DNA from: Lentisphaeria bacterium
GTDB taxonomy: Bacteria > Verrucomicrobiota > Lentisphaeria > Victivallales > Victivallaceae
Length of the DNA: 64,000 nt
Reading direction: 5' to 3'
Assembly: GCA_017507125.1 (NCBI GenBank)
Contig: JAFWBQ010000023.1
Coordinates: 1 to 64,000 of the forward strand
Part shown: positions 33,736 to 38,621 of the stretch, one piece after another
How positions within the stretch are numbered: position 1 is the stretch's first letter
How the letters are laid out: every line of letters begins with the position of its first letter
The notes under the pieces: generated by a model
The model's input: only the letters and a program-made list of their open reading frames with translations
What the model was told of the DNA's origin: nothing
Databases searched by the model: none
Made by a program: the position numbers and the translations under genes

Positions 33736-35664
33736 ATGGTCTCTATGACTCAGGGCAATGCTCTTCAAGATTTTTTTCTTGACAGATTCCGTAAACACAG
33801 AGCGCAGAGAGCAGCAAAGCTCCGGCAGCTGAAAAATGCTGCTGATGCAGAAAAGCATGTTTCATCTCTCAAAGAAAAAATAAAAAAATGTTTTCATGCC
33901 CCGGCGGAAAAAACTCCTTTGAACGCCCGGACCACCGGCGTATTGGAGTACCCTGAGTTCACTTTGGAAAAGATCCTTTTTCAGAGTCGCCCCGGATACA
34001 CCGTCAGCGCCAACTTTCTGCTGCCGCGCAAGCGGGAAGGAAAGATCCCTGCGATCCTCTTCCTTTGCGGACACTGTGATGAAGGAAAGGCTTATACTGT
34101 TTACCAGACCGCCATGCGCGGACTGGTCAAGAGCGGTTTTGCCGTTTTGACCTTTGATCCCATAGGGCAGGGGGAGCGCCGGCAGTTCAATCAGATCAAA
34201 GAGTGCCGTTTCTCCCCCACAGAGCAGCACAATCTCATCGGCAAACAGCTTCTTCCTGTGGGTGAGGATCTCTTTTCATGGCATCTCTGGGATGCTGTTC
34301 GCGCCCTGGACTATCTGGAATCCCGTGCAGAGATCGATCCGGGCCGCATCGGCGCCCACGGCAACTCCGGCGGCGGAACCACCACCATCTGGCTTGCTGC
34401 TCTTGATGAACGTGTCGCCTGGGCTGCTCCCTCAAGCGCTGTGACCACATGGCTCCACAATGTTGAAAACGAAATGGCAACAGACTGGGAGCAGATCCCT
34501 CCTCTGGCTGCAAAGCAGGGGTTGGATTACTCCGACTTCCTTATGGCGGCAGCGCCCCGTCCTCTGATGCTGCTGGGGCAGAAGCATGACTTCTTCGATC
34601 CCCGGGGCTTTGATGAAGCAGAGGAAGATTTGAGAAAAGTCTACACGCTTCTGGGGGTTCCGGAAAAATTGGGGCATTTTCTCGGCGACAGCCATCACGG
34701 ACTTTCCGGACAACTGCGGGAACAGGCATACAAATTTTTCTGCCGCTGTGCAAATTTGCCTGAGCCTGCGGTGGATGAGTCAGAGATCACATTGTGCGCT
34801 GAAGAGGAGCTTTATGCTGCCCCCGGCGGTGATGTGTATAATCTTGAGGGGGAAAAGAAACTTCATCAACTTGCCGCAGATAAAGCCGCTGCCCTGAAAA
34901 AGAAAAGAAAAACTCCTGCAAGAAAAGTGCTGGCACAGCGTCTTTCAAAGCTTCTGGGAATCGGTCAAATAAACGAGCCCTATGTCAGACGTTTGATCTA
35001 CCGCTATTTTCTCCACGAGGGAGCACACCAGAATTATTCACGTTTCGGGCTTGAAACCGAACCCGGACGGGTGATGGCGGTGCTTCACCGTTCAGCCAAA
35101 AAAGCTCTTTACTACAATTTCAATCCGATCCAGGGGGAAACGGTGCTTTACATTCCCTCCATTGATTGCGCGGAAGAACTTCTGCTGCGGGAGCCGGAAA
35201 AGGAAGACGCTCTTTACAGTCTGGACTACCGCGGTGTGGGGGAATGTGCCTCAACGGCCTGTGAGCAGATGCCGGTCAAGGATTTCTTCTATTACTACGG
35301 CGCAGATTTCTACTTTACTTCTCTTTATATGATGTGGGGTGAAAGCTACTGTGGCAAAAGAGTCAAAGATATCCTTGAAGCTCTTACACTGATCGGACCT
35401 GTTGCCGCTTCTGAAAAAGTGACCATTGAAGCTCATGGATTCGGCTGTATCCCGGCACTTCTGGCGGCAGTGATCTCTCCTTACACCAAAGAAGTCAAAC
35501 TCAGCGCTCTGCCTGCTTCATGGGAAGAGATGGTATCTGCACCCCTTGCTTCTTTTGATGAGGCTCCTGTTTCGGCCATGCCTTACAGGATCCTTGAGGC
35601 AGCGGATATTCCTGAACTGATCCGTGTGCTTGAAAATGCAGGCATCAAAGTGACCTGCTGCTGA
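33736..35664 (+). CDS. Alpha/beta hydrolase, acetyl xylan esterase-like, with second degenerate module
   Basis: 642 residues, no signal peptide. The first half (about 60-340) is an alpha/beta hydrolase of the Axe/dienelactone-hydrolase type: nucleophile Ser211 in G-A-H-G-N-S-G-G-G, acid in Q-K-H-D-F-F-D-P (about 285) and base in D-S-H-H-G-L-S-G (about 317). The second half (about 400-642) looks like another hydrolase fold with a nucleophile-elbow-like A-H-G-F-G-C where the serine is Phe, so it is probably inactive. The role is likely deacylation of imported glycan fragments. AGAGGAAG lies upstream of ATG. Confidence 0.8.
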   Translation: MVSMTQGNALQDFFLDRFRKHRAQRAAKLRQLKNAADAEKHVSSLKEKIKKCFHAPAEKTPLNARTTGVLEYPEFTLEKILFQSRPGYTVSANFLLPRKREGKIPAILFLCGHCDEGKAYTVYQTAMRGLVKSGFAVLTFDPIGQGERRQFNQIKECRFSPTEQHNLIGKQLLPVGEDLFSWHLWDAVRALDYLESRAEIDPGRIGAHGNSGGGTTTIWLAALDERVAWAAPSSAVTTWLHNVENEMATDWEQIPPLAAKQGLDYSDFLMAAAPRPLMLLGQKHDFFDPRGFDEAEEDLRKVYTLLGVPEKLGHFLGDSHHGLSGQLREQAYKFFCRCANLPEPAVDESEITLCAEEELYAAPGGDVYNLEGEKKLHQLAADKAAALKKKRKTPARKVLAQRLSKLLGIGQINEPYVRRLIYRYFLHEGAHQNYSRFGLETEPGRVMAVLHRSAKKALYYNFNPIQGETVLYIPSIDCAEELLLREPEKEDALYSLDYRGVGECASTACEQMPVKDFFYYYGADFYFTSLYMMWGESYCGKRVKDILEALTLIGPVAASEKVTIEAHGFGCIPALLAAVISPYTKEVKLSALPASWEEMVSAPLASFDEAPVSAMPYRILEAADIPELIRVLENAGIKVTCC

Positions 35665-35676
35665 AAATAAAAGAGT

Positions 35677-37092
35677 TCACTCAGAAAGGGCATTTTCACA
35701 GAGAAACTCTTTTACAGTTTCAAGGCCTTTTCTGAGTTCCTCCAAAGTTGCCGGTGAAGAGATGGCAAAGCGCAGAAAAGCTCCCGGGTTGCGGCTGACT
35801 GTGAAACGCCGGGCGTGGTAGATGCTGATGTTCCGCAGCATCAGCTCCCGCTCCAGCTCCACACCGTTTAATTTCAGGCGGGGCAGAGGGAACCAGCGGA
35901 AAAATGCCGCCGGAGAGCCCGGAGGAAGCTGTCCCGGAAAGACAGAATCAAAGACTCTGTTTCTTTCAATGGCAAGTTCGCTTTTCTGCTCCAGTATTTT
36001 CCTTCCTTTGCCGCTGAGGATCAATTCGGTCATGATCTCAGCATCAAGGGAGGAGGTTTTGATGTTCAAATGAAAGAGGGCATCCAGCAGCCGTGAGCGG
36101 AATTTCTCCGGGAAGGCGGCAAAGGCGACCCGCAATCCGCTGCAGAGTGCCATGGTGGAGTTGCACACATGTATGGTCTGCTCAGGCACTCTGGTGAACA
36201 TGGAGTGGTAATCTGAGGCAGCCGCGAGGGGAGTTCCGGTATTGTCATCCTCAATAAGAGTGAGCTTGTGAGTAAGGATAATATCTGCCAGTTCATCTTT
36301 GCGTTTTTCCGAAAGAGTGCAGGTGGTGGGATTGGCACAGTTGGGCATGAGAAAAATGCCTGAAATATGATTTTTACGGCAGAGTGAACGCAATTCATCA
36401 GGCACCATGCCATGGGTATCGCCCCGGACGGGGATCAGCTGGATATGGGAAAGTTTTGCCGTTCCGATCAAGTTGGAATAGGTGTATTCATCTACCGCCA
36501 TTTTATCCCCCAGACGGAAAAGTGAAAGCAGCGCCGTACTGATGGCGTTTTGAGCACCGGAAAAAATGGCTGTATGTTCGCTGTCTGTGCGGACATCCAT
36601 TCTGGCCATCCAGTGTGCCCCTGCTGCACGCTGATGAAGATGCCCGGCGGGCTCAGTGTATGAGTAAAGTTCCTCTATATAACCCTTTTTCAATACCTCC
36701 CCGGTGGCCTCGATCACAGGAGCTCTCAAGTGGTCAAAACCGGTGACCAGTCCGAGTTCTGTGAAGTGTTCCGCCGTCGTGCGTTTCCCTGTCAGAGTGT
36801 TGCCGGGGAGCGGGGAAACAAAAGAGCCTTTGCCGACCACTCCGTAGAGCAGATTTTTTTCCCGGCAGAGATTGTATGCACGGGTGACAGTGGTAAAATT
36901 CAGATCCAGAAAATCAGCCAGTTCTCTTTGGGGCGGAAGGCGTGTCCCGGAGGCAAGTTTGCCTGAAATAATATCAGATTCAAGGGCGTTGGCAAGAGAA
37001 AGATAATAAGGACGGGTCAGTTTCTTCCTGTCAGGAGTCCAGCTCAGAAAAAAATTGTCAAAAGAGTTTGTCGGCATTTTATTGTAATCCAT
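35677..37092 (-). CDS. MocR-type (GntR-aminotransferase) regulator, PdxR-like, lacking the PLP lysine
   Basis: 471 residues. A GntR winged helix (about 27-95; L-P-P-Q-R-E-L-A-D-F-L-D-L-N-F-T-T-V-T-R-A-Y) is joined to a fold-type I aminotransferase domain. The usual N-P-T-G site appears as N-P-T-T (about 254) and the E-D-D motif is kept (281-283), but the Schiff-base lysine of S-x-S-K-x-L-x-P-G-L-R is Met314 and the E-D-D-Y tyrosine is Asn284. Its divergence from pdxS-pdxT points to a PdxR role, normally activating or repressing PLP synthesis in response to PLP. Here it must sense without the usual covalent bond, or sense something else. Confidence 0.88.
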   Translation of the reverse strand: MDYNKMPTNSFDNFFLSWTPDRKKLTRPYYLSLANALESDIISGKLASGTRLPPQRELADFLDLNFTTVTRAYNLCREKNLLYGVVGKGSFVSPLPGNTLTGKRTTAEHFTELGLVTGFDHLRAPVIEATGEVLKKGYIEELYSYTEPAGHLHQRAAGAHWMARMDVRTDSEHTAIFSGAQNAISTALLSLFRLGDKMAVDEYTYSNLIGTAKLSHIQLIPVRGDTHGMVPDELRSLCRKNHISGIFLMPNCANPTTCTLSEKRKDELADIILTHKLTLIEDDNTGTPLAAASDYHSMFTRVPEQTIHVCNSTMALCSGLRVAFAAFPEKFRSRLLDALFHLNIKTSSLDAEIMTELILSGKGRKILEQKSELAIERNRVFDSVFPGQLPPGSPAAFFRWFPLPRLKLNGVELERELMLRNISIYHARRFTVSRNPGAFLRFAISSPATLEELRKGLETVKEFLCENALSE

Positions 37093-37141
37093 ACAATTTT
37101 ATGATTTGTATTAATATACTTCCCTGATATATTAAATGCAA
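37091..37141. promoter_or_regulatory. Overlapping divergent promoters and operator, pdxR-like/pdxST
   Basis: Rightward: TTGTAT (37106-37111), 16 bp, TATATT (37128-37133) for pdxST. Leftward: TTGCAT (37136-37141), 17 bp, TATATT (37113-37118) for the regulator. The two -10/-35 sets interlock. An inverted repeat ATACAA-N9-TTGTAT (37091-37111) overlaps the regulator start and the pdxST -35, a good site for the regulator to act on both genes. Confidence 0.65.
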
Positions 37142-37173: not shown

Positions 37174-38049
37174 ATGAACAACGAACAGTACGAACTGAAT
37201 TGCAATCTGGCTCAAATGCTCAAGGGCGGCGTTATTATGGACGTGACCACACCGGAACAGGCAAAAATCGCTGAAGATGCCGGCGCCTGCGCCGTTATGG
37301 CTCTGGAACGGATCCCCGCCGATATCCGCGCCGCAGGCGGCGTTTCACGCATGAGTGATCCCGGAATGATCCGCGGTATCCAGGAGGCCGTGACCATTCC
37401 CGTCATGGCAAAGTGCCGTATCGGTCACATCGCTGAAGCCCGTATCCTTGAAGCTATTGAGATCGACTACATTGACGAAAGCGAAGTTCTCAGCCCCGCT
37501 GATGATATCTACCATGTGAACAAAAGAGCCTTCAAGGTTCCCTTTGTCTGCGGCGCCAGAGATCTGGGCGAAGCTCTGCGCCGTATTTCCGAAGGGGCCG
37601 CTATGATCCGTACAAAGGGTGAACCCGGAACCGGTGACGTTGTGCAGGCTGTCCGCCACATGCGTAAAATGAATCAGGAGATCCGCCGGGTGGTCAACAT
37701 GGCTGAAGATGAACTTTATGAAGCCGCCAAACAGCTTCAGGTTCCCTTTGAACTGCTCATGTATGTCCACAAAAACGGTAAGCTCCCTGTGGTGAACTTT
37801 GCCGCAGGCGGTGTGGCAACTCCCGCTGATGCTGCTTTGATGATGATGCTGGGCGCTGAAGGTGTGTTTGTCGGTTCCGGTATCTTCAAATCCGGCGATC
37901 CCGCCAAGCGTGCTGCCGCTATTGTCAAGGCCGTGACCAACTATCAGGATTACGGTATGCTGGCTGACCTCTCTGCCGGACTCGGCGAAGCCATGGTTGG
38001 TATCAATCCCTCTGAAATCAAGATCATCATGGAAGAACGGGGGATTTGA
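37174..38049 (+). CDS. pdxS: Pyridoxal 5'-phosphate synthase, PdxS subunit
   Basis: 291 residues, full length. Segments typical of PdxS/SNZ are [32 protein letters not shown] (catalytic Lys), D-Y-I-D-E-S-E-V-L and [11 protein letters not shown] (second Lys). With PdxT it makes PLP from ribose 5-phosphate, glyceraldehyde 3-phosphate and glutamine-derived ammonia (DXP-independent route). GGAG lies 9 bases upstream. Confidence 0.98.
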
Positions 38050-38621
38050 TGAAAGTCGCACTCCTCGCCTTACAGGGGGACTTTGCAGAACATGAAGCGG
38101 TGTTCCGCGCTCTTGGGGCAGAAACGCTTCAGCTCAGGCAGAAAAAAGATCTTGAACAGCACTTTGATGCTCTGATCCTCCCCGGAGGGGAAAGCACTGT
38201 TCAGGGCAAACTTCTGCGGGAGCTTGAAATGTTTGAGCCCCTTAAAGAGATGATCGAACAGGGGATGCCTGTTCTGGCAACCTGTGCCGGAGTCATTCTT
38301 CTTGCCAGACAGCTTCTGGATGATCCGACGGTTCACCTCGGAACACTCAATGCTGTTGTCCGTCGCAATGCCTACGGGCGGCAGCTGGGGAGCTTTTTCA
38401 TAAGAGGCAGCTTTGCCGGAGTCAGGGATGTGCCCATGAGTTTCATCCGGGCGCCCCAGATCGAATTCTGCGGTTCCGGTTGTGAAGTCCTTGCCGAGCA
38501 CGAGGGCAGGATCACTGCCGTGCGGCAGGGAAATCAGCTGGCAATGACCTTTCATCCGGAATTATGCGATGATCACCGGGTGGCACAATATTTTCTTTCT
38601 GAAATCGTCGGAATGAATTAA
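38049..38621 (+). CDS. pdxT: Pyridoxal 5'-phosphate synthase, glutaminase PdxT
   Basis: 190 residues. Class I glutamine amidotransferase: G-G-E-S-T (46-50), nucleophile Cys79 in A-T-C-A-G-V and the F-H-P-E-L His-Glu pair near the C-terminus. It feeds ammonia to PdxS. ATG 38049 overlaps the pdxS stop by one base (TGATG), so translation is coupled. A terminator follows. Confidence 0.97.
   Translation: MKVALLALQGDFAEHEAVFRALGAETLQLRQKKDLEQHFDALILPGGESTVQGKLLRELEMFEPLKEMIEQGMPVLATCAGVILLARQLLDDPTVHLGTLNAVVRRNAYGRQLGSFFIRGSFAGVRDVPMSFIRAPQIEFCGSGCEVLAEHEGRITAVRQGNQLAMTFHPELCDDHRVAQYFLSEIVGMN

Follow-up and report, generated by a model that had tools for sequence, protein, structure and literature searches.

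In GabR and EnuR, two regulators of the MocR type, a lysine holds PLP and is then exchanged for the amine of the inducer. To our knowledge, the characterised PdxR proteins respond to PLP with this lysine in place. The residue has been regarded as a constant of MocR proteins, and the MocR clusters share, as conserved residues, both the Schiff-base lysine and the aspartate facing the pyridine nitrogen; Tyr281 characterises only the GabR cluster, the EhuR/EnuR-like branch being without its equivalent (PMC6677901). In EnuR, Lys302 was conserved in 278 of 278 proteins examined and is required to answer the amine-derived inducer; its replacement freezes the protein, the Lys302His variant being a constitutive repressor in which PLP is no longer visibly carried (PMC8739950). 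For PdxR, the known pattern is activation of pdxST and self-repression by the apo-protein, with PLP acting as the off switch (PMC5320631). Our search of the open-access literature found no paper on a MocR protein without the lysine (an earlier report is possible).

A MocR-type regulator beside the PLP synthase genes

The window, that is, the whole stretch of 64,000 nucleotides of Lentisphaeria bacterium DNA analysed here, carries a regulator gene divergent from pdxS and pdxT, as a preliminary description of this DNA had stated (Table 1). The gap to pdxS is 81 bp, or 96 bp if translation begins at Met6. MPxNSF is the N-terminus of most homologues, and residues 1-5 of the annotated regulator are mainly operator sequence read in frame; Met6 (37077) seems a likelier start than the annotated one. 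Both pdxS and pdxT scored well above the NCBIfam cut-offs. The regulator adjoins pdxS in 35 of the 44 members of its family (35 of about 41 among those with enough upstream sequence), and a contig end cuts off three of the non-adjacent members. On its other side, a two-part alpha/beta-hydrolase-like protein is encoded at 33736-35664, convergent and ending 12 bp from the regulator stop codon; among the relatives checked, this gene was adjacent to the regulator only in L002 and the near-identical L021.

Table 1. Features of the regulator-pdxST locus in the window.
Feature	Position	Strand	Basis
MocR-type regulator, 471 aa	35677..37092	minus	ORF; divergent from pdxS-pdxT
Regulator start conserved in most homologues, Met6 (MPTNSF)	37077	minus	
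GntR-type winged helix-turn-helix, residues 30-92	36817..37005	minus	Pfam PF00392
Aminotransferase class I/II domain (Aminotran_1_2), residues 136-454	35731..36687	minus	Pfam PF00155, AlphaFold/Foldseek
Met314 (ATG), position of the PLP Schiff-base lysine	36151..36153	minus	codon and profile alignment
Asn284 (AAT), position of GabR Tyr281	36241..36243	minus	codon and alignment; PMC6677901
Asp282, equivalent of the Asp pairing with the pyridine nitrogen; invariant	36247..36249	minus	alignment
Arg321, equivalent of the phosphate-binding Arg; invariant	36130..36132	minus	alignment
Arg441, equivalent of the substrate-carboxylate Arg; invariant in the regulator's family	35770..35772	minus	alignment
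pdxS, PLP synthase lyase subunit	37174..38049	plus	NF003215, 499 bits
pdxT, PLP synthase glutaminase subunit	38049..38621	plus	TIGR03800, 205 bits
Three-box operator, TTGTA-N5-TACAA-N9-TTGTA(TT); box direction alternates; overlaps the regulator ORF at its 5' end	37082..37112	plus	footprint in relatives
Candidate pdxST promoter, TTGTAT (37106-37111), 16 bp, TATATT (37128-37133)	37106..37133	plus	read from sequence and conservation

In the protein, an N-terminal GntR winged helix-turn-helix (wHTH) is followed by an aminotransferase domain of fold type I. The fold was confirmed by an AlphaFold model (a monomer with no ligand, mean pLDDT 81), which does not address ligand binding; its top structural match was GabR (4n0b, E 3e-26). 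Among NCBIfam models, the best match was the EhuR/EnuR model NF052286, over the full length with 270 bits, below its cut-off of 480. With the PdxR equivalog NF052282, the regulator scored 125 bits against a cut-off of 320, whereas L077, a canonical PdxR of the same class, reached 488 bits. The neighbours are pdxST and the hydrolase gene, not ectoine genes as expected beside EhuR/EnuR, and the column equivalent to Lys302, which binds PLP covalently in EnuR, holds a methionine. Divergence from pdxST and operator boxes in the common intergenic region, both seen here, are among the functional marks of a PdxR. Thus, the name PdxR-like given in the preliminary description fits the job that the protein appears to do, but not its sequence, which by these scores belongs to neither PdxR nor EhuR/EnuR. 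By its domains the window regulator classifies as a MocR protein, one that lacks the lysine once held constant.

The cofactor pocket and the lysine column

A profile alignment to solved aminotransferases placed residue 314 in the catalytic lysine column and residue 284 just after E-D-D. Codons and alignment bear out the earlier observation that the Schiff-base lysine is replaced by Met314 and the tyrosine of E-D-D-Y by Asn284, the other cofactor-site residues being kept (D282, D283, N254, Y205, Q181, R321 and R441, almost invariant among relatives). These two losses had been named side by side. The lysine loss is indeed unusual, but the tyrosine loss carries no weight and was dropped as evidence, since the branch is normally without this tyrosine (PMC6677901) and 41 of 46 Bacillota relatives have isoleucine at the position. 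From the alignment, an asparagine there is ordinary for the EhuR/EnuR-like branch; the lysine change is not.

Full-length or nearly full-length relatives occur in 40 of 198 genomes of the class, and further ones come from Kiritimatiellae assemblies and from a single rumen MAG that bears a Proteobacteria label. Many of the sampled genomes are metagenome assemblies, some of them incomplete. A search of viral contigs found no relative of the regulator. In the 44 distinct members, the lysine column holds methionine (25), arginine (13), serine (1), alanine (1) or lysine (4). Asp282 is kept and the lysine absent both here and in 39 relatives. G179, Y205, N254, D282, D283, R321 and R441 do not vary across the same 44 members. 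Since 40 of the 44 members, drawn from several MAG projects, hold M, R, S or A, the loss can be read as neither a local mutation nor an assembly artefact. The preliminary description had reasoned that close homologues with the lysine would suggest a local mutation; four such relatives exist (L015, L022, L044 and L107, all pdxST-linked), but loss is the norm throughout the clade. The history of the column was followed as counts of label changes on a maximum-likelihood tree built without that column, which required at least four changes between lysine and non-lysine, and eight state changes.

One of the lysine-bearing, pdxST-linked members (L107:2501-3868) has an in-frame TAG in the regulator gene, and one TAG was also seen in G124. 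Pairwise dN/dS between lysine-less members was 0.04-0.14 (approximate values, dS being high in several pairs), which shows these members to be under purifying selection. Decay in host-associated genomes, with the regulator becoming a pseudogene, could be imagined from the in-frame stop in L107 and from the many gut metagenome assemblies. It is hardly credible, and largely excluded by these ratios: the lysine-less members have open frames, an invariant pocket and a conserved operator, and the single broken member is one that retains the lysine.

A Schiff base made by another lysine, which would have overturned the first interpretation of this protein, is highly improbable. Four lysines of the domain (136, 265, 345 and 370) are well conserved, but each is also conserved in the lysine-bearing Bacillota relatives, so none is a replacement; moreover, K345 is an arginine in the R314 group and no lysine lies within about 10 residues of 314. 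In the alignment of relatives, lysine-bearing Bacillota included, no lysine column was gained along with the loss, and this candidate was rejected. As the lysine is absent from an otherwise retained cofactor site, covalent PLP in the window regulator is very unlikely, and loose binding of a B6 vitamer is the best reading; the preliminary description had suggested loose binding of PLP or of another metabolite.

The aminotransferase domain could instead be only a dimerisation scaffold that takes no B6 vitamer, the protein being a fixed activator or repressor or reading a signal at another site. The loss of the PLP-anchoring lysine would agree with this, as would EnuR Lys302His, a fixed repressor without PLP (PMC8739950). 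We consider a pure scaffold unlikely: it would be expected to lose the pyridine-nitrogen residue, the phosphate Arg, the NPT Asn and the stacking Tyr, which are invariant over 43 relatives while the lysine column varies, and lysine-bearing and lysine-less forms have the same operator and B6 regulon.

Operator, B6 regulon and proposed mechanism

The regulator-pdxS intergenic region carries TTGTAATCCATACAATTTnnnnnTTTGTATT, an operator whose three boxes alternate in direction, an arrangement familiar from MocR regulators (PMC5320631). One copy was found in the regulator's own genome, in a search with up to three mismatches. In a survey of the class genomes with a 17-base core and one mismatch allowed, the core occurred in 40 genomes: 35 of the 40 with the regulator and 5 of the 158 others (Fisher p 4e-28, not corrected for relatedness). 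In one of these five (G022), the contig ends at the operator ahead of pdxS. Where the regulator lies elsewhere (G176, G012, G038 and G131), the operator still precedes pdxS. Second operators were found about 80 bp upstream of a pyridoxamine-kinase gene in G134, G038 and G131, the regulator being of the lysine type in G134 and of the arginine type in G038 and G131; the G134 kinase scored 302 bits against a cut-off of 231. As the operator stands before pdxS or the kinase gene with both types of regulator, the B6 regulon appears well supported in trans, and does not differ between lysine-bearing and lysine-less types.

The candidate pdxST promoter has a -35 element coinciding with the third operator box; relative to the predicted start of pdxST, the operator would then lie at about -58 to -30. 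A consensus promoter scan returned no usable pdxST promoter, and the candidate was not among its listings.

Some members differ in the layout of the locus. In L043 (G090), about 1 kb of extra, partly repeated sequence lies between regulator and pdxS, and the operator remains on the pdxS side. A gene resembling GltS-type (sodium/glutamate) symporters, a family assigned by eye, follows the operator-controlled pyridoxamine-kinase gene in G038 and G131 (L195/L196), and in G012 and G028 a gene of the same type, also assigned by eye, is transcribed divergently from the regulator (L017:3-1277; L019:3-1334). It is perhaps a member of the B6 regulon, possibly a B6 vitamer transporter. Also, in G176 (L041:555-1435) a split DMT/EamA-type transporter gene, not pdxS, is divergent from the regulator across the same operator, and is another candidate B6 transporter.

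We think it probable that the window regulator is a functional MocR regulator of B6 genes that binds the three-box operator and senses PLP or another phosphorylated B6 vitamer noncovalently. The protein would bind the operator between its gene and pdxS, and its regulon would consist of pdxST and, in three related genomes, also of the pyridoxamine-kinase gene. PLP, or PMP or PNP, would be held reversibly in the retained pocket without an internal aldimine. By analogy with PdxR, the apo form would be an activator of pdxST and a repressor of its own gene, and B6 binding would turn pdxST off; an operator at about -58 to -30 of pdxST that overlaps the regulator start fits this pattern. From the invariant Asp facing the pyridine nitrogen we infer a ligand with a pyridine ring, and from the phosphate Arg a phosphorylated one, so that noncovalent PLP is favoured. 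The lysine would be dispensable because the signal is the vitamin itself and, unlike in GabR and EnuR, no amine must displace it. Against noncovalent PLP stand the four family members that keep the lysine, and EnuR Lys302His, which shows that loss of the lysine can abolish stable PLP holding (PMC8739950).

Other lineages and comparison with known MocR systems

By reading the genes adjoining pdxS elsewhere in the class, we found a second clade (clade 2: L245, L246, L248, L250, L259, L260 and L261), whose members are divergent from pdxS and lack the lysine in seven of seven cases (M, M, M, Q, R, L and L). They are about 20% identical to the window protein and nearer to the PdxR and YczR models (below cut-off). 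Like the window regulator, they combine divergence from pdxS and loss of the lysine with retained EDD, NPTG and GFR; they are without the carboxylate Arg. Also, L218 (L218:1486-4152), with 456 bits against the PdxR model (cut-off 320), has an arginine at the PLP lysine, and its neighbour is a pyridoxamine-kinase-like (pdxK-like) gene whose 210 bits fall just short of the 231-bit cut-off. Lysine-bearing clades separate the window family, clade 2 and L218 in a tree of MocR proteins. Three lineages and, in addition, the changes within the window family make up the count of independent losses, since members of one clade are not independent; several of the recorded losses are nested and share ancestry.

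This recurrence in two further B6-linked MocR lineages is new with respect to the preliminary description. Sequence comparison shows a lost lysine with a retained pocket, operator, B6 regulon and purifying selection, and separate losses; that the lysine is lost in two unrelated groups of B6-linked regulators as well suggests that PLP sensing itself does not need the covalent bond. The loss seems to be permitted and not required in B6-linked MocRs, because the lysine is present in five of five canonical PdxR proteins that neighbour pdxST in the class (L215, L216, L217, L271 and L272). Sampled homologues with no B6 neighbour detected keep it in all 86 cases (46 of 46 in Bacillota and 40 of 40 in the phylum, some of the latter maybe plain aminotransferases without a wHTH, and with flanks of only about 1.5 kb). 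We give roughly even chances to a broader view, in which B6-gene regulators would have become noncovalent PLP sensors by convergence: no fewer than three distinct MocR lineages would have lost the lysine and kept the pocket, because sensing an end product calls for binding but not for transimination, and because a looser, reversible hold would suit homeostasis.

The Bacillota relatives (L108-L157) are 45-49% identical to the window regulator over the full length. All 46 keep the lysine, and 41 of the 46 are divergent from azlC-azlD; a few adjoin ridA/phzF genes in place of azlCD. The intergenic regions of these loci contain an operator much like that of the window family, ATTGTAATCCATACAATT...ATTGTATGGATT. 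L109 from Bacillus haynesii (L109:1293-3886) is one example of these apparently undescribed azlCD-divergent MocR regulators. With their operator, ATTGTAATCCATACAATT...ATTGTAT, they resemble the window family, and they differ from it in their PLP lysine and in having branched-chain amino acid exporter genes as neighbours. Our search of the open-access literature found no paper on regulation of azlC by a MocR protein. From the similar operator at azlCD and pdxST, DNA recognition appears to have been preserved while the target switched between amino acid export and B6 synthesis, the lysine being constant only on the exporter side.

R441, the equivalent of the carboxylate-binding Arg, is invariant in both the lysine-less branch and the lysine-bearing azlCD branch, and an amino acid or keto acid as part of the ligand is possible. 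The pocket could take up a preformed Schiff base of PLP with an amino acid, or PMP together with a keto acid, and so read B6 and amino acid supply jointly; such an adduct would form in solution and need no lysine. This is quite unlikely, as R441 could be structural and clade 2 stands at pdxST though it has lost both the lysine and the Arg column, so that B6 control does not generally depend on an amino acid partner. Reversible binding of the vitamer without such a partner remains our preferred explanation.

Holding PLP and using it chemically are two roles that commonly go together; they are pulled apart in natural regulators that have no lysine yet retain pocket, operator and B6 regulon. Pairs with and without the lysine (L044 versus L046; L015 and L022 versus L011) are ready-made for the question of the covalent bond, and the azlCD branch of Bacillota, with its similar operator and its lysine, offers a matching amino-acid-linked control.

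Compared with GabR of B. subtilis, which has Lys312, forms an external aldimine with GABA and possesses Tyr281, the window regulator lacks both the lysine and the tyrosine. It resembles EhuR/EnuR, the regulator of ectoine catabolism, in missing the equivalent of Tyr281 (PMC6677901), and differs in that its targets appear to be B6 genes, not ectoine genes. With the PdxR proteins of C. glutamicum, Listeria, Streptococcus and B. clausii, it has in common the wHTH and aminotransferase fold, divergence from pdxST, B6 genes as presumed targets and operator boxes in the shared intergenic region, with mixed direct and inverted boxes in both (PMC5320631). Unlike PdxR, it has neither the PLP lysine nor the EDDYDSEF motif, and it is only about 15% identical to L216, a canonical PdxR of the same class.
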